IMG/VR virus record: IMGVR_UViG_3300030333_003252
Span: 1-20,222 of that record
Reading direction: 5' to 3' (one strand)
Source of the DNA: a virus
DNA length: 20,222 bases
Below are positions 10,302-19,615 of the stretch, piece by piece. Each line of letters starts with the position of its first letter. Position 1 is the first letter of the stretch. The notes under the pieces are model-generated. The model worked only from the letters and a program-made list of their open reading frames with translations. It was not told where the DNA came from and ran no database searches. The position numbers and the translations under genes are program-made.

Positions 10302-10566
10302 TAAAGTTCCAATGGTTAGGATTACTTGGCTTGATGCAAGAGATATGGAAACAGGTTGGCTTTCTATAAAAGAAATAATGGAAGCGCCTTTGGCCGTGTG
10401 CCAAGAAGTAGGATACATGGTTGTAAACAATGATGATAAGATTGTAATTATGCGATCTTGGTGTATAGACAAAGATGATAATCACGGAGGGGGTGCCATT
10501 GCTATTCCAAGAGGCTGGGTAAGAGAGATAGAATATTTGAAAGTGGATTATGCTGTTAAAAAATAA
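10282..10566 (+). CDS. Conserved small phage protein of unknown function
   Basis: 94 aa from the ATG at 10282, which overlaps the upstream oxygenase by 20 bases. An internal ATG at 10312 would begin the protein at MVRITWLDARD. I favour that as a possible true start, because relatives I recall begin close to a V-x-I-T-W-x-D-A segment. Neither start has a strong ribosome site. The sequence reads as a small beta-barrel-like domain: VRITWLDARDMETGW, a YMVVNNDDKIVIMRSW strand pair, then GAIAIPRGWVREIEYL. No catalytic residues are apparent. The 3' end overlaps the JmjC-like gene by 17 bases, tying it into the oxygenase operon. Function unknown; possibly a substrate-handling or regulatory partner. 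Confidence 0.7.
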   Translation: MKEVNINKVPMVRITWLDARDMETGWLSIKEIMEAPLAVCQEVGYMVVNNDDKIVIMRSWCIDKDDNHGGGAIAIPRGWVREIEYLKVDYAVKK

Positions 10567-11059
10567 AGATATAAAAAGAATTAAGAACAAAAAAGTTACT
10601 TATGTAAAAAAGTTCACTCAAAATTTAAGAAATTATAATTTTGATATTCTTGCTAGTTTAATCGATGATTATTCTTTAACTGTCTTAAACAAAAGTAATA
10701 TACTGAATTTTAATGCTACTTGGCAGGTTAAAGATGTTCATAAAACAAATACTGATTTTTTTGTTTTTTTAGATTTTCTGTATAAGATTTTTAAATACAC
10801 TCCTGAAACAAGGGATGGAGTTGATTTATTTTTTTCTTTCGTCACAAATACAGGAATATCACATGTAGATACAGAAGATGTTTTTTTAATTGGCATGCAC
10901 GGTAAAACTATTTATCGAATAACAGATACTAATAAAGATTATTTGTTAGAATATGGAGATCTTCTTCACATACCAAAAGGAATTAGACATAAATCAATAT
11001 CATCTACCCCTCGTATAATTGCTTCAATAGGTTTTTATGGCGGAAAATATGCAAATTAA
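10550..11059 (+). CDS. Mini JmjC/cupin-type putative 2OG oxygenase
   Basis: 169 aa. The C-terminal half shows the Cupin_4 (JmjC ribosomal oxygenase) pattern: GISHVDTEDVFLIGMHGKTI with H105-x-D107 as metal ligands, LLEYGDLLHIPKGIRH with the distal H147, and then PRIIASIGFY. Cellular members such as bacterial RoxA are much longer and hydroxylate ribosomal proteins. Here the N-terminal part is short and the dimerisation and winged-helix domains are missing. The protein overlaps the preceding gene by 17 bases and the glycosyltransferase by 23 bases. It is the only oxygenase in the island of this fold class. Whether it is active or a 2OG/metal-binding cupin is not decidable here. Confidence 0.7.
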   Translation: MLLKNKDIKRIKNKKVTYVKKFTQNLRNYNFDILASLIDDYSLTVLNKSNILNFNATWQVKDVHKTNTDFFVFLDFLYKIFKYTPETRDGVDLFFSFVTNTGISHVDTEDVFLIGMHGKTIYRITDTNKDYLLEYGDLLHIPKGIRHKSISSTPRIIASIGFYGGKYAN

Positions 11060-15242: not shown

Positions 15243-15833
15243 ATGAATTTACAGTCACTATTTATTACACCTGTTATGATGACAGAGGTCACGGGCCACG
15301 GTCATTTAATAGATAGACTTTATGAGATAAAGGCTAAAGACAAAAAAGGTATGCCAAGATCCAATGTTGGAGGCTGGCACAGTGACGATGAACTTTATAA
15401 AGATGAAGAATTTAAAAGCACAGTAGGTGATATATTATTAAAAGCTAAAGAGTGCTTTAATCATTTAGATGTGCAAGATAAATACGTTCCAGAAATGACA
15501 GGTTTGTGGGGCATGATTAATCCTCCAGGATCTAGAAATAATGTCCACACACATCCTTACAATTACTTGTCTGGAGTGTACTATCTAAAAGTGCCTCAAA
15601 AAAGCGGTAATTTAGTGTTTCTAGAGCCTAAACCACAGGCTGAGGTATTATCACCCCCAAAGAAGAAAAACGCCTCTGTGCATATCGCACATAGCGTAGA
15701 TTTCGAACCAAAGGAAAATTCATTGATTTTTTTCCCATCATGGTTACAACATGAAGTTAAAATAAATAGTTCTAATGAAGATAGAGTTATTTTAAGTTTT
15801 AACATAAATTGGAGAGAAAATGCCGATAATTGA
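15243..15833 (+). CDS. 2OG-Fe(II) oxygenase, TIGR02466/PF13759 type
   Basis: 196 aa with AAAGGA before the ATG. This is the clearest TIGR02466 match in the window. The N-terminal LFITPVM segment is typical. GLWGMINPPGSRNNVHTHPYNYLSGVYYLKVP (given here in parts) provides H102 and H104; LIFFPSWLQHEV gives distal H170; and EDRVILSFNIN gives R181 for 2-oxoglutarate. The inserted stretch around 125-150 (EPKPQAE, PPKKKNAS) is hydrophilic. It overlaps the next gene by 14 bases. Family members are described only as putative oxygenases, so the substrate is open. Confidence 0.9.
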   Translation: MNLQSLFITPVMMTEVTGHGHLIDRLYEIKAKDKKGMPRSNVGGWHSDDELYKDEEFKSTVGDILLKAKECFNHLDVQDKYVPEMTGLWGMINPPGSRNNVHTHPYNYLSGVYYLKVPQKSGNLVFLEPKPQAEVLSPPKKKNASVHIAHSVDFEPKENSLIFFPSWLQHEVKINSSNEDRVILSFNINWRENADN

Positions 15834-16074
15834 ACCCGCAGAACAAATAGGAACAATAACTTTAGAAGACGGAAGAACAATTCCTAGATATAAAGTTAAA
15901 ACTGAAACCACGTTAACTAATATGGACACTGGTCAGGAATATGAATCAGAAGAAGCTATGCAAGCTGATATAGATGATCCAAACACTTCAACTACTGCTG
16001 AAAAAATTAGAAGAGATGTTAAAGTATTTGCTCCGTCATTAAAAGATATGTTAGGTCAAACACCAAAAGAATAG
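15820..16074 (+). CDS. Conserved marine-phage protein of unknown function (84 aa)
   Basis: The ATG at 15820 has GGAGAG just upstream and overlaps the preceding oxygenase by 14 bases. The protein reads GTITLEDGRTIPRYKV, then TTLTNMDTGQEYESEEA, then IRRDVKVFAP. It is acidic overall and beta-rich in the first half. I recognise the TNM-TG-EYES core from small proteins that are common beside tail and accessory genes in marine phages, where they are unnamed. No metal-binding or catalytic signature is visible. It could be a small head or tail component, or a partner of the flanking modification enzymes. Confidence 0.75.
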   Translation: MPIIEPAEQIGTITLEDGRTIPRYKVKTETTLTNMDTGQEYESEEAMQADIDDPNTSTTAEKIRRDVKVFAPSLKDMLGQTPKE

Positions 16075-16076
16075 TT

Positions 16077-17039
16077 TTGACAGTCGGTGTAAATATATCA
16101 CACGACTCTTCAATTTGTATTAAGAAAGAAAACAGTATTGAATTTTTTGAAGAAAGTCGTTTTAATAAAAAAAAGTTTTGGGGTCCCTCTGCTAATGACT
16201 TTGATTATCTTTCATTAAAACATGTAAAAAATTTTGATGATACTTTTGTGTTTGCTTGTTGTGGTAGGTTAGAGGATGACCACGAAAAAGTTATAGAAAA
16301 TCTTTGCAAAAAATACAACATTAAAAATTTTGTATTTAATGAATTTATGCATCACATATATCATGCATGTGCTGCGTTTCATGTTTCTTCCTTTAATGAA
16401 GCAATGGCGATTGTTATAGATGGGGGTGGCGCTATTTTAAGACAATTAGAAAAGTCTTATAGAGAGAGTGACAGCATCTATTATATAAATAACATGCAAG
16501 TAAAAGCAAAATATAAAAGTTATAACAATTCTAGATTTAGTGCTTTGTACAATGATTTTAAAAATAAAAATAAATTATTAAAATTAATTGAAACCTGTCA
16601 AAATAAAAATCAAATAAACAATGTTCTTGATTATTTTTATATGCAAAATGATTGTTTATATAGAATGACAAATAATTATAATCCAGGTGATTTGTTTAAT
16701 CATTTATGTAACACGATAGGATTAGTAACACTTGATGAGAATGAACCAGGTAAAGCAATGGGTTTATCTTCTTATGGTAATAGTCATGGCAAAAGAGACG
16801 AAGATTTAGCTAAACAAGTGCAAGAGGTAACTGAGGAGTATACAATAAATTTAATAGAAAAAGCTCTTACATTAGGTAATACAAAAAATATTATTTTATC
16901 TGGAGGATACGCACTAAATTGTGTTAACAATTACAAATATACTGAATACTTTAAAAATGTAAATTTTTTTATTGATCCGTGTCCTCATGATGGTGGAACT
17001 GCCTTGGGTGCAGCTGTATGGTATGATTATTACAGATAA
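16077..17039 (+). CDS. Carbamoyltransferase, N-terminal (Kae1-like) domain as a separate gene
   Basis: 320 aa from TTG 16077, directly after the previous stop. Motifs of the NodU/TobZ O-carbamoyltransferase family (PF02543) run in order: SHDSS at 8-12, HHIYHACAAF at 92-101 (metal-binding His residues), IVIDGGG at 112-118, GKAMGLSSYG at 225-234, SGGYALNCVNN at 275-285 and PHDGGTALGAA at 303-313. This domain makes or uses carbamoyl-adenylate from carbamoyl phosphate and ATP. In most relatives the same polypeptide continues into a C-terminal domain. Here it stops at 17039, and that domain follows in another frame with a 17-base overlap. The acceptor hydroxyl is unknown. The coding sequence is visibly more AT-rich than the tail genes. 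Confidence 0.85.
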   Translation: MTVGVNISHDSSICIKKENSIEFFEESRFNKKKFWGPSANDFDYLSLKHVKNFDDTFVFACCGRLEDDHEKVIENLCKKYNIKNFVFNEFMHHIYHACAAFHVSSFNEAMAIVIDGGGAILRQLEKSYRESDSIYYINNMQVKAKYKSYNNSRFSALYNDFKNKNKLLKLIETCQNKNQINNVLDYFYMQNDCLYRMTNNYNPGDLFNHLCNTIGLVTLDENEPGKAMGLSSYGNSHGKRDEDLAKQVQEVTEEYTINLIEKALTLGNTKNIILSGGYALNCVNNYKYTEYFKNVNFFIDPCPHDGGTALGAAVWYDYYR

Positions 17040-17577
17040 ACAAAAAGCAATAGAAAAAATTTTAGATCAAGAAGTAGTTGCTATTTACCAAAGTAGTTCT
17101 GAGTACGGCCCTAGAGCATTAGGTAACAGGTCTTTATTGTTTGATCCTAGAAATAAAAACGGTAAAGATATTGTAAATACAATAAAGAAAAGAGAATGGT
17201 TTAGACCTTTTGCTGGCACTGTTTTATTAGAACACGCAACAGAATGGTTTGAAATGGGTAGAATAAAAGAGTCACCCTACATGTCATATGCTATTCCTGT
17301 AAAAGAACATAAAAAAAATATTATACCCGCTATAACACATGTCGATGGCACGTGTAGAATTCAAACTCTTACTATGGAGCAGAACAAAAATTTTTATGAA
17401 TTAATACAATTGTTTTATTTAAAAACAGATGTGCCTATACTTTTTAATACTTCTTTTAATTTAGCTGGTGAACCTTTAGTTGAAACAAAAGAAGACGCTC
17501 TGGATACGTTAAAAAGATCCGATATTAATTATATTTATTTTCCTGATTTGCATTCACAATCATCACAGCAGTGTTGA
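17023..17577 (+). CDS. Carbamoyltransferase, C-terminal domain as a separate gene
   Basis: The frame is open from 16972, but ATG 17023 is the sensible start: it gives 184 aa, overlaps the upstream gene by 17 bases and falls in the natural linker. Family (PF16861) motifs are complete: SSEYGPRALGNRSLLFDPR (25-43), REWFRPFAGTVLLE (57-70), SPYM (84-87), THVDGTCRIQT (105-115) and PILFNTSFNLAGEP (138-151). It supplies the carbamoyl phosphate and acceptor side of the active site. Relative to the N-terminal gene it lies in the +1 frame. I see no obvious slippery site, so two coupled subunits is the simplest reading. The last 43 bases overlap the convergent 52-aa gene. Confidence 0.85.
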   Translation: MIITDKQKAIEKILDQEVVAIYQSSSEYGPRALGNRSLLFDPRNKNGKDIVNTIKKREWFRPFAGTVLLEHATEWFEMGRIKESPYMSYAIPVKEHKKNIIPAITHVDGTCRIQTLTMEQNKNFYELIQLFYLKTDVPILFNTSFNLAGEPLVETKEDALDTLKRSDINYIYFPDLHSQSSQQC

Positions 17578-17693
17578 TCCGCATTTTTAATATGTCTTTC
17601 AACATCTCTTTCCATAGCAAGTAGTCGTTCGTGATATTTGCTCACCTTATCTGCAAGGTAGGCAATGGCTTTATTAAGGTCTTGGTTATCCAT
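17535..17693 (-). CDS. 52-aa coiled-coil protein with C-terminal Cys cluster
   Basis: This gene runs against the surrounding rightward operon. ATG 17693 on the - strand is preceded by AGGAG at good distance; the stop is TAA at 17535-17537. The product begins MDNQDLNKAIAYLADKVSKY, forms a charged helix with heptad-like Leu, Val and Met spacing (about 6-37), and ends HCCDDCECKSGK (41-52) with four Cys and a preceding His pair. The Cys-rich end could bind zinc or iron or form disulfides. I recognise no family. A strong ribosome site, a clean frame and an upstream promoter-like pair support it as real. The first 116 coding bases fill most of an otherwise non-coding gap. Confidence 0.7.
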   Translation of the reverse strand: MDNQDLNKAIAYLADKVSKYHERLLAMERDVERHIKNADQHCCDDCECKSGK

Positions 17694-17703
17694 ATTTGTC
17701 TCC

Positions 17704-17713
17704 TGTGATTGTT
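17704..17713 (-). promoter_or_regulatory. Leader motif AACAATCACA shared with the leftward virion operon
   Basis: The ten bases AACAATCACA occur on the - strand immediately before the ribosome site of the 52-aa gene (17713-17704), and again in the leader of the 310-aa gene (8381-8372). Both are upstream of first genes of leftward transcripts. It could be a binding site or part of a shared leader, but a ten-base match in AT-rich DNA can arise by chance. Confidence 0.3.
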
Positions 17714-17730
17714 AATTTTGGTGAGAACCT

Positions 17731-17758
17731 AATGTAAGCATATTTTTTAAGTCTGCAA
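17731..17758 (-). promoter_or_regulatory. Possible promoter for the 52-aa reverse gene
   Basis: Read on the - strand, TTGCAG (17758-17753), 16 bases, then TACATT (17736-17731), 37 bases before the ATG at 17693. The match is moderate and the region is AT-rich, where chance matches are frequent. It is offered because the gene is opposite to all neighbours and needs its own promoter. Confidence 0.3.
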
Positions 17759-17800
17759 TAGTATTTTTTAAAAATGTTTTCTTGACACAAAATTTATGGT

Positions 17801-18415
17801 ATGAAAGTGCTAGAAATAAGAATGACAAGCAAAATATATGTTAGTGGTAAAATCATTAAGAGGTATGTAATACCTAAAGAACAAATAGATGAACTAAACA
17901 CAGAATACGAAAAAAATAGAGAAAATTTATCTAGTGACAGTTCAAAACTAGCAGGAAGAATTGACTCAGAAAAAAGTGTAATACCAATTATTCAATCATG
18001 TAAGATATATAATACTTTAACAAAAAACATGGGCGACTACATAATGTCACTAAACAATTTTGATTTAAGCAAAGATCCCATGTTTAACACTAATATCTTA
18101 AGTTGTTGGATTAATGATATGAAGCCAGGTGAATACAATCCGCCACACACACATCACGATACTACAGGATGGTCTACAGTATTATTTTTAAAAGTTCCAA
18201 AAACAATAAATGATGCAAAACATAAACATAAATTTAGAGATGGTCAATTAGGTTTTATTTTTGATGGTCACACGACTAAATACTTTACTCCAGAGGTGGG
18301 TCATTTTTACATTTTTGAAGCATCGCATCAACATTTTGTAATGCCTTTTAAAAGTGTTGAAAATGAAATAAGAAGATCAATGTCATTTAATTTTATAAGA
18401 GATAATGCTAGATAA
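17801..18415 (+). CDS. 2OG-Fe(II) oxygenase, TIGR02466-like
   Basis: 204 aa from ATG 17801; an in-frame ATG at 17822 (MTSKIYVSG) is an alternative, and neither has a good ribosome site. Metal ligands lie in YNPPHTHHDTTGWSTVLFLKVP: H116 and H118 as H-x-H. The distal His is in FEASHQHFVMPF (H178 by alignment with the 8480 enzyme, or H176), and EIRRSMSFNFIR supplies Arg 191/192 for 2-oxoglutarate. The RRS-x-SFN-x-R ending is nearly the same as in the 8480 enzyme, which marks the two as paralogues. It opens a second cluster (17801-20125) of AT-rich genes after the reverse gene, and overlaps the DUF6065-like gene by 11 bases. Confidence 0.85.
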   Translation: MKVLEIRMTSKIYVSGKIIKRYVIPKEQIDELNTEYEKNRENLSSDSSKLAGRIDSEKSVIPIIQSCKIYNTLTKNMGDYIMSLNNFDLSKDPMFNTNILSCWINDMKPGEYNPPHTHHDTTGWSTVLFLKVPKTINDAKHKHKFRDGQLGFIFDGHTTKYFTPEVGHFYIFEASHQHFVMPFKSVENEIRRSMSFNFIRDNAR

Positions 18416-19091
18416 AAAAATAGAGTTTATCATAACAAATAAAGATCATTTAGATATATGGCCCAGTCCAAAACCAGCTTTAAAATTTATACCTGAAGAT
18501 TATAAAAAACTTGGTAGATTAAAAAATAATAATCTACACGACCCTACTGTAAAAACATGCATGCCTTTTTTAGACGCCATGACAGCTGGTTACATAATAC
18601 CTTTTGAACAAGATTATATCGTAGATCCAACGGAGGATGACTTCTCCATGACACCTGCTAATAAACAAAATAATATGTATGGTATGCATCCTAAACAGCA
18701 GCTCACTGAGTCTATGGCAAAAAAAGCAAAAGAAAATGCTGGAAAATTTCATAACAAATGGCTGATAAGAACACCACCTGGTTATAGTTGTTTATTTGTT
18801 CATCCTTTAAATAGAGTTGATGATAGGTTTGAAATTTTGTCTGGAGTTGTCGAAACTGACACTTACATTAACACAGTTAATTTTCCTTTTATACTAAAGA
18901 AAAGAGACAATCAGTTTTTATTTAAAAAAGGTGAGCCTATGGTGCAAGTAATACCTTTTAAAAGAGAGTCTTGGAAAATGTGGTCTGGTTTTAAATTTGA
19001 AAAAGAGCACAGTATCACTGATAATAAATTAGGTAGTCTTATTATTGATAGATACAAAAGATTTTTTTGGAGGAAAAAAACTTATAAATGA
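18405..19091 (+). CDS. DUF6065-like conserved protein of unknown function (228 aa)
   Basis: No catalytic motif that I can name. The layout recalls DUF6065-type proteins common in marine phages and some bacteria: WPSPKPALKFIPEDYK near the start, KTCMPFLDAMTAGYIIPF (50-67), a central Met/Gln-rich stretch, NKWLIRTPPGYSCLFVHPLNR (117-137, quoted in part), FEILSGVVETDTYI (142-155) and GEPMVQVIPFKRESWKM (176-192). The second half alternates strands and turns like a cupin-type beta barrel, though a metal-binding triad is not evident. It is coupled on both sides to oxygenases (11-base overlap before, ATGA after), so a shared pathway is likely. The family assignment is from memory of motif order. Confidence 0.65.
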   Translation: MLDKKIEFIITNKDHLDIWPSPKPALKFIPEDYKKLGRLKNNNLHDPTVKTCMPFLDAMTAGYIIPFEQDYIVDPTEDDFSMTPANKQNNMYGMHPKQQLTESMAKKAKENAGKFHNKWLIRTPPGYSCLFVHPLNRVDDRFEILSGVVETDTYINTVNFPFILKKRDNQFLFKKGEPMVQVIPFKRESWKMWSGFKFEKEHSITDNKLGSLIIDRYKRFFWRKKTYK

Positions 19092-19615
19092 AAAATTTAA
19101 CTGATTATATTCATAGATATGATGATGTGTTAAGTGGACAATTGTGTAAATCTATTATTAATAAATCAAGATGGCATGATTTTGTAAAAGCTAACACGGT
19201 TGGTGAAAGTAATTCTAGAAAATGTTACATAAAAGCAATTAATCAAGAATTTGATAAAGACATATTTAAAAGTGTAGGACAAATTATTGAAAAATATGCA
19301 AAAGCACATAAACATTTTAGTACAGGTTTAACTTGTGAAGATACTGGTTATCAACACTTAATTTATTTGGGATCTCAAAAAGGAGAGTACAAAGAACACA
19401 CTGATCACGGTGACATTACACCTAGAGTTTTAACAATATCTTTTATTTTAAATGATAGTTATGATGGAGGAGACTTTGTTTTTTTTGGAGGGACTTACAC
19501 TGTTCCTAAAAAACAAGGTAGTGTGGTTGTCTTTCCAAGCAATTTTTGTTTTCCTCACGCAATAACACCTGTTACCAATGGTAATAGACACGCAATAATT
19601 ACATGGGTGCATTAA
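19088..19615 (+). CDS. 2OG-Fe(II) oxygenase, prolyl-4-hydroxylase-like
   Basis: 175 aa, starting in an ATGA overlap with the DUF6065-like gene; GGAGG lies at a longer distance, so coupling probably matters. Metal ligands are H104-T-D106 (GEYKEHTDHGD) and H157 (FCFPHAITPV), with R167 ten residues later (GNRHAIITW) as the 2OG ligand. ISFILNDSYDGGDFVFFGG and GSVVVFPSNF are textbook PF13640 strands. The sequence around the distal His (FPSNFCFPHAITPVTNGNRHA) is especially close to bacterial prolyl-hydroxylase-like proteins of the PKHD group. The next gene begins directly after its stop. Confidence 0.9.
   Translation: MKNLTDYIHRYDDVLSGQLCKSIINKSRWHDFVKANTVGESNSRKCYIKAINQEFDKDIFKSVGQIIEKYAKAHKHFSTGLTCEDTGYQHLIYLGSQKGEYKEHTDHGDITPRVLTISFILNDSYDGGDFVFFGGTYTVPKKQGSVVVFPSNFCFPHAITPVTNGNRHAIITWVH

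Follow-up and report, generated by a model that had tools for sequence, protein, structure and literature searches.

The O-carbamoyltransferases of the NodU/CmcH type, such as TobZ, GdmN, NovN and VtdB (PF02543 plus PF16861), are single chains, in which an N-terminal Kae1-like domain is followed, after a linker, by a C-terminal YrdC-like domain, and all of the solved O-carbamoyltransferases returned by our searches were single chains as well, in which one domain hands an activated intermediate to the other. According to PMC9654439, the domain orders of HypF and TobZ differ from each other, and both proteins have a channel for the intermediate that is formed by the two domains. The same paper describes t6A synthesis as using threonylcarbamoyl-adenylate, which TsaC and TsaD make and use without a fused chain, and names the KxR and SxN motifs for Kae1 and TsaC. 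The metal ligands of GdmN were taken from PMC9633730.

We analyzed a 20,222-base virus record from IMG/VR (hereafter the window, meaning the entire stretch), in which the two domains are encoded separately:

16077..17039, + strand: N gene, encoding a metal-binding subunit of the Kae1-like kind that would serve the acceptor (320 aa from a TTG start)
17023..17577, + strand: C gene, encoding a YrdC-like subunit expected to be the carbamoyl-adenylate synthase (184 aa, ATG start)
17023..17039, + strand: overlap of the C start with the N stop, a candidate translational coupling site (17 bases; offset common to 46 loci)

The initial annotation had described a carbamoyltransferase split between the Kae1-like and C-terminal domains into two overlapping genes at these positions, and both the ORFs and Pfam confirmed this. 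The N ORF runs from TTG at 16077 to TAA at 17037-17039, and the C ORF from ATG at 17023 to the stop at 17575-17577 in the +1 frame relative to N; upstream of this ATG, the C frame of the window stays open back to TTG at 16972. N matches PF02543 with 60.8 bits (cut-off 24) and C matches PF16861 with 197.6 bits (cut-off 27). In PHROGs, N and C align to positions 4-320 and 357-524 of phrog_1601, respectively, and C also to phrog_20469. Sequence searches against the PDB assigned N to the N-terminal (Kae1-like) and C to the C-terminal (YrdC-like) domain of carbamoyltransferases. Megablast of the whole window against phage records returned no match, and no tRNA was found in the window.

All of the family motifs had been reported as present, and the metal ligands and KxR...SxN were indeed intact. 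H92, H96, D115 and D305, which correspond to GdmN H133, H137, D156 and D333 by spacing and alignment, were kept together with H9 in all 107 split N domains. K55xR57 and S144xN146 were kept in all of the 96 C domains (3 of them contig-edge C's) on an ORF without N. The locus has the sequence hallmarks of the NodU/TobZ family, namely a Kae1-like domain with the H, H, D and D ligands in N and a YrdC-like domain with KxR...SxN in C, except that two ORFs take the place of a single polypeptide with a linker. Because of the two ORFs and the mostly absent linker (see below), we file the pair as a split variant and not as an ordinary NodU/TobZ member. Judging from the sequences and the predicted structures, 16077-17577 probably encodes a genuine two-subunit NodU/TobZ-type O-carbamoyltransferase, to which we assign a probability of roughly 0.83.

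Relatives were collected by two protein scans of IMG/VR (76 and 60 loci), a profile scan, of which the best 80 of at least 592 matches were used, and a scan of cellular genomes, of which the best 80 of 252 were used. After 16 repeat fetches of the same contigs had been removed, 269 loci (the window, 182 from IMG/VR, 80 cellular and 6 from phage records) were classified by ORF, near-identical contigs from different metagenomes being counted separately. Since the searches were seeded with the proteins of the window and best-N lists were used, the locus counts below are not prevalences. The window belongs to the class N-C. The 182 IMG/VR loci comprised 74 fused, 60 N-C, 17 C-N-C-N, 8 C-N, 6 N-C-N and 5 fused-fused loci, two each of C-N-C-N-N, fused-N and C only, and one each of C-N-N-C-N-N, C-N-N-C-N, C-N-C, fused-N-N, N-fused and N only. 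Some of the labels are imperfect, as the array of L048 is cut at its start, L091 and L100 begin at or near a contig edge, and L111 and L099 carry lesions. Among the best 80 of the 252 cellular matches, 72 were fused, 3 fused-fused, 2 C only (both at a contig edge), 2 N-C and 1 fused-N; one of the two N-C loci, L133, is a 4 kb contig with the neighbours of the window's phage type, and the other, L138, is a 5 kb contig. The six phage records comprised two C-N (the isolates S-RIM44 and Sf-FP1), one C-N-C-N (S-SCSM1), two fused (P-SSM2 and marine virus AG-345-E02, at the places examined) and one fused-N (S-SSM7, L132, with a fused gene followed by a lone N). Altogether, within this seeded sample, almost all of the split loci are on phage-like contigs.

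The junction of the two genes was compared by the offset of the C start from the base after the N stop. C starts with ATG at -17 in 46 classified loci including the window (one of them, L262, is a separate lineage). The offset is -4 in 25 loci, a part of which are N1-C2 junctions of arrays, +1 in 5, -20 in 4 and +3 in 4, and -14, -11, -1, +2, +29, +50 and +102 were found in a single locus each (that of L111 being undefined). As the offsets vary, the frame relations between N and C differ among the relatives. The N proteins with a -17 junction fall into 25 clusters at 95% identity and share 54-94% identity among themselves when L262 is left out, so that the conservation of this junction exceeds chance. 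In the 43 loci with a -17 junction and full N, the codon aligned to the TTG start of the window is ATG in 18, GTG in 16, TTG in 8 and another codon in 1 (L262).

A one-base indel error had been raised, and faulty sequencing or assembly of an ordinary fused gene, or a recent mutation that inactivated it, would leave such a break. Breaks of this kind do occur in the set (L111 and L099), but the junction is shared by 46 loci from different metagenomes, purifying selection acts on both halves, their motifs are intact, and linker residues are missing. We therefore regard the chance of an error or lesion as practically negligible. As an observation on its own, L111 is broken inside the C domain and a lone N of L099 is interrupted; these random-looking lesions show what an ordinary break looks like. 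Neither relaxed selection nor motif loss was found, and the pair was not classed as a pseudogene.

Programmed +1 ribosomal frameshifting in the overlap, which would yield one fused carbamoyltransferase, had also been proposed. In its favour, N and C are adjacent and overlap, and the window, like the -17 loci in general, has them in a +1 relation. On the other hand, relatives include pairs in other frames (-4), pairs without overlap and pairs in reverse order. The codon that precedes the N stop is variable (AGA, AAA or AAG), and inspection of the junctions by eye showed none of the usual +1 slippery motifs. Moreover, C has its own ATG, and that at -17 is the sole start codon available for C in many relatives. 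A joined N-C chain would have a linker of about 13 residues instead of 33 or more. Frameshifting is very unlikely in light of these points. The combination of a single frame relation with a conserved slippery site was not found, and the pair was not listed as a programmed +1 frameshift gene.

The break had been placed in the inter-domain linker. It does lie between the domains, but most of the linker itself is absent. Between identical profile ends, the linker of fused enzymes has 33-52 residues in phages (median 42, n=92) and 34-60 residues in cellular genomes (median 48, n=79), whereas the window retains 13, of which 2 follow the N domain and 11 precede the C domain. In many of the other split loci, N stops 16-20 residues past the profile, just after a YLG-like motif; N of S-RIM44 extends 27 residues past the profile, and the second and third N proteins of the arrays have tails of 33-56 residues, so that the site of the break varies from group to group.

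Selection was assessed by Nei-Gojobori dN/dS in the 43 loci with a -17 junction and full N, using the pairs with 0.05<dS<1.2 out of 903. The median was 0.317 for N (777 pairs, one at 1 or above) and 0.121 for C (718 pairs, the highest 0.429 and none at 1 or above). Against the window alone, dN/dS was 0.07-0.36 for N and 0.07-0.19 for C except for L262 (0.756 and 0.407, respectively). Purifying selection is acting on both halves.

For the phylogenies, in which the window stands as row L001, identical domains, domains shorter than 90% of the profile and near-identical rows were left out, and the N tree is without L102, L141, L162, L152 and L176. The N tree comprised 131 rows. In it, the window type fell in a clade of 34 rows, all of which are split, with an SH-aLRT of 99; this clade also holds the phages with C-N order and N1 of the arrays. 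The initial annotation had named a continuous gene in all close relatives as a refutation, but none of the 34 representative rows in the N clade of the window is fused. A second N clade united 14 split rows (N2/N3 of arrays) with an SH-aLRT of 98. In the C tree, which is weaker than the N tree and in which the rows L102, L141 and L162 labelled as split are contig-edge artefacts, the window type grouped in an all-split clade of 12 rows with a support of 97. As to the number of origins of the split, the N tree needs six label changes, four of them forced by starred branches, and these changes include long or single rows (e.g., L227, L138 and L262). The two main split groups are not demonstrably separate (p-AU of 0.193 in a 51-row subset picked after viewing the tree). 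C of L227 is placed within the window-type C clade, whereas its N is extremely divergent and groups elsewhere; of the N proteins of L258, one falls inside the 34-row clade and one outside.

AlphaFold2, with inputs restricted to the window and IMG/VR rows, modelled N alone with a pLDDT of 90.2 and a pTM of 0.90 and C alone with 88.8 and 0.86, so that each half is predicted to fold by itself. The final helix of the N model (307-319) ends at the stop, and the C model opens with the first strand and helix and has its last seven residues disordered. No four-base word gave a joined N-C chain that retains the N end. Foldseek placed TobZ and GdmN at the top for N and TsaD and HypF lower, with loose superpositions (rmsd about 8); for C, it returned GdmN, VtdB and TobZ (rmsd about 1.5), then TsaC/Sua5. 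In VIA-align, N and TobZ (chain 2-353) superposed with a Z of 23.8 and an rmsd of 2.5 over 251 residues, at an identity of only 23%. As the split is conserved, both halves are under selection, the motifs are retained, each half is predicted to fold and the linker is lost, both the indel error and the +1 frameshift fit poorly. The two-subunit reading, which the initial annotation had offered, gains support from the conserved split, the selection, the predicted folds and the other frames, gaps and reverse order in relatives. The variant is real and conserved, and it represents a known family of enzymes in a two-gene form.

The genes around N and C recur in their order in 57 loci, mostly of the window type, wherever the contig reaches (N in 57/57 and C in 56/57). 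The counts are given as found, uncorrected for contig reach, and 2OG paralogues can substitute for one another:

15243..15833, + strand: upstream 2OG-Fe(II) oxygenase (PF13759; synteny 39/57 loci)
15820..16074, + strand: small gene directly upstream, with no match in Pfam or PHROG (synteny 45/57 loci)
17801..18415, + strand: downstream 2OG-Fe(II) oxygenase (PF13759; synteny 39/57 loci)
18405..19091, + strand: downstream DUF6065 protein (PF19541, phrog_7084; synteny 36/57 loci)
19088..19615, + strand: downstream 2OG-Fe(II) oxygenase (PF13640; synteny 25/57 loci)

A virion protein (25/57) and another small gene (28/57) recur as well. The oxygenase at 17801..18415 is a possible source of the acceptor hydroxyl. 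Between 8465 and 20125 of the window, nine genes within about 12 kb score above a 2OG-Fe(II) oxygenase cut-off of Pfam; a further gene, at 10550-11059, does so for a JmjC-type domain. In comparison with 15243-19615 of the window, the upstream neighbours are 87 and 90% identical in L044 and 93 and 86% in L030, while N is only 38 and 60% identical, respectively, despite these close neighbours; this pattern would fit an exchange of the cassette that starts with N.

The C-first units have a different companion. A thyX gene (PF02511) lies upstream in 29 of the 33 C-first loci (e.g., L126 2825-3475 and L129 2751-3398), and the four without it (L069, L091, L100 and L228) begin in or beside the C gene. 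In addition, thyX was found between C and the second N in three of the six N-C-N loci and 11.6 kb off in one N-fused locus, and in none of the 148 fused and 63 N-C loci within the flanks examined. Common descent of the cyanophage region could account for this link without any function.

If the established chemistry of the family applies, C would form carbamoyl-adenylate from carbamoyl phosphate and ATP, and N would take it over and carbamoylate an acceptor hydroxyl. Docking of the two chains would largely resemble that of the TobZ domains, with no covalent linker between them. If the chemistry needs contact but no fixed order, two docked subunits are plausible, and the missing linker and the free gene order fit them. 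The 17-base overlap suggests coupled translation of C, by which ribosomes finishing N would start C and keep both in proportion; the bases just upstream of the C start are constrained by the N protein.

N genes outnumber C genes within a cluster in L089, L090, L062, L063, L224, L228 and L132, and thus one C may serve several N subunits. It is also conceivable that N and C are independent enzymes without a lasting complex, C releasing carbamoyl-adenylate to be collected by one or several N, as TsaC and TsaD manage their intermediate without a fused chain (PMC9654439). Extra N without their own C in L089 and L090 (both N-C-N), L062 (C-N-N-C-N-N) and S-SSM7 would agree with this, but in the window type each N has a single C next to it, at a constant overlap, and the channel between the domains of TobZ and HypF (same source) speaks against free release. 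Altogether, we regard independent enzymes as improbable and prefer the two-subunit enzyme. A broader proposal is rather doubtful: a modular system of marine phages in which one C serves one or several N as acceptor-specificity subunits and N is swapped and multiplied between phages, the thyX-linked cyanophage form carbamoylating a 5-hydroxymethyl-type pyrimidine in phage DNA and the window type acting on hydroxyls made by the 2OG oxygenases next to it. If the two-subunit reading is true, this natural split would let each half-reaction be measured apart, and a conserved split with a missing linker, free order and extra N would test whether the covalent linkage matters.

We found no published description of the split in the literature searched, most subscription papers being outside its scope. 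The records of S-RIM44, Sf-FP1 and S-SCSM1 do not remark on it and annotate both halves with one name, carbamoyltransferase, so that the gene names hide the split. PMC9146016 and PMC10436341 assign the carbamoyltransferase of cyanophages to pyrimidine synthesis, as its first step, and the matches in the S-MS29 record are of the NodU/TobZ type; if the same gene is meant, that assignment may be a misattribution.

Among the known systems, TsaC (YrdC) and TsaD (Kae1) of tRNA t6A synthesis resemble the window in being separate chains and were Foldseek matches to its two models, but they belong to a different family. N scored only 19.7 bits against TIGR00329 (TsaD; cut-off 207.8), and C matched only PF16861 in Pfam at E 0.001 and only NodU in NCBIfam, none being a TsaC/Sua5 sequence family; the predicted likeness of C to TsaC/Sua5 is of fold only. 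HypF (PMC9654439; Foldseek) combines YrdC and Kae1 domains in the C-N order of the C-first phage units, but is one chain with further domains and serves hydrogenase maturation, unlike the window. The 5-hydroxymethylcytosine carbamoyltransferase found by MetaGPA (PMC8670742) is a phage enzyme with a thymidylate-synthase homologue, which recalls thyX beside the C-first units. In contrast to the two-gene form, it is one chain of 63 kDa with a PF00303-type partner, and the words split, subunit and heterodimer do not appear in the main text of that paper. The 'Nol-like carbamoyltransferase' genes of S-RIM44, Sf-FP1 and S-SCSM1 are stand-alone C and N as in the window, but these cyanophage units (C-N and C-N-C-N) differ in the reverse order, the longer N tail and thyX alongside. 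The phrog_20469 family, which is C only with 181 aa, is like the stand-alone C of the window. With TobZ, GdmN, NovN and VtdB, the window shares both domains, the metal ligands, KxR/SxN and the predicted folds, and differs from them in having two genes with the linker nearly gone.
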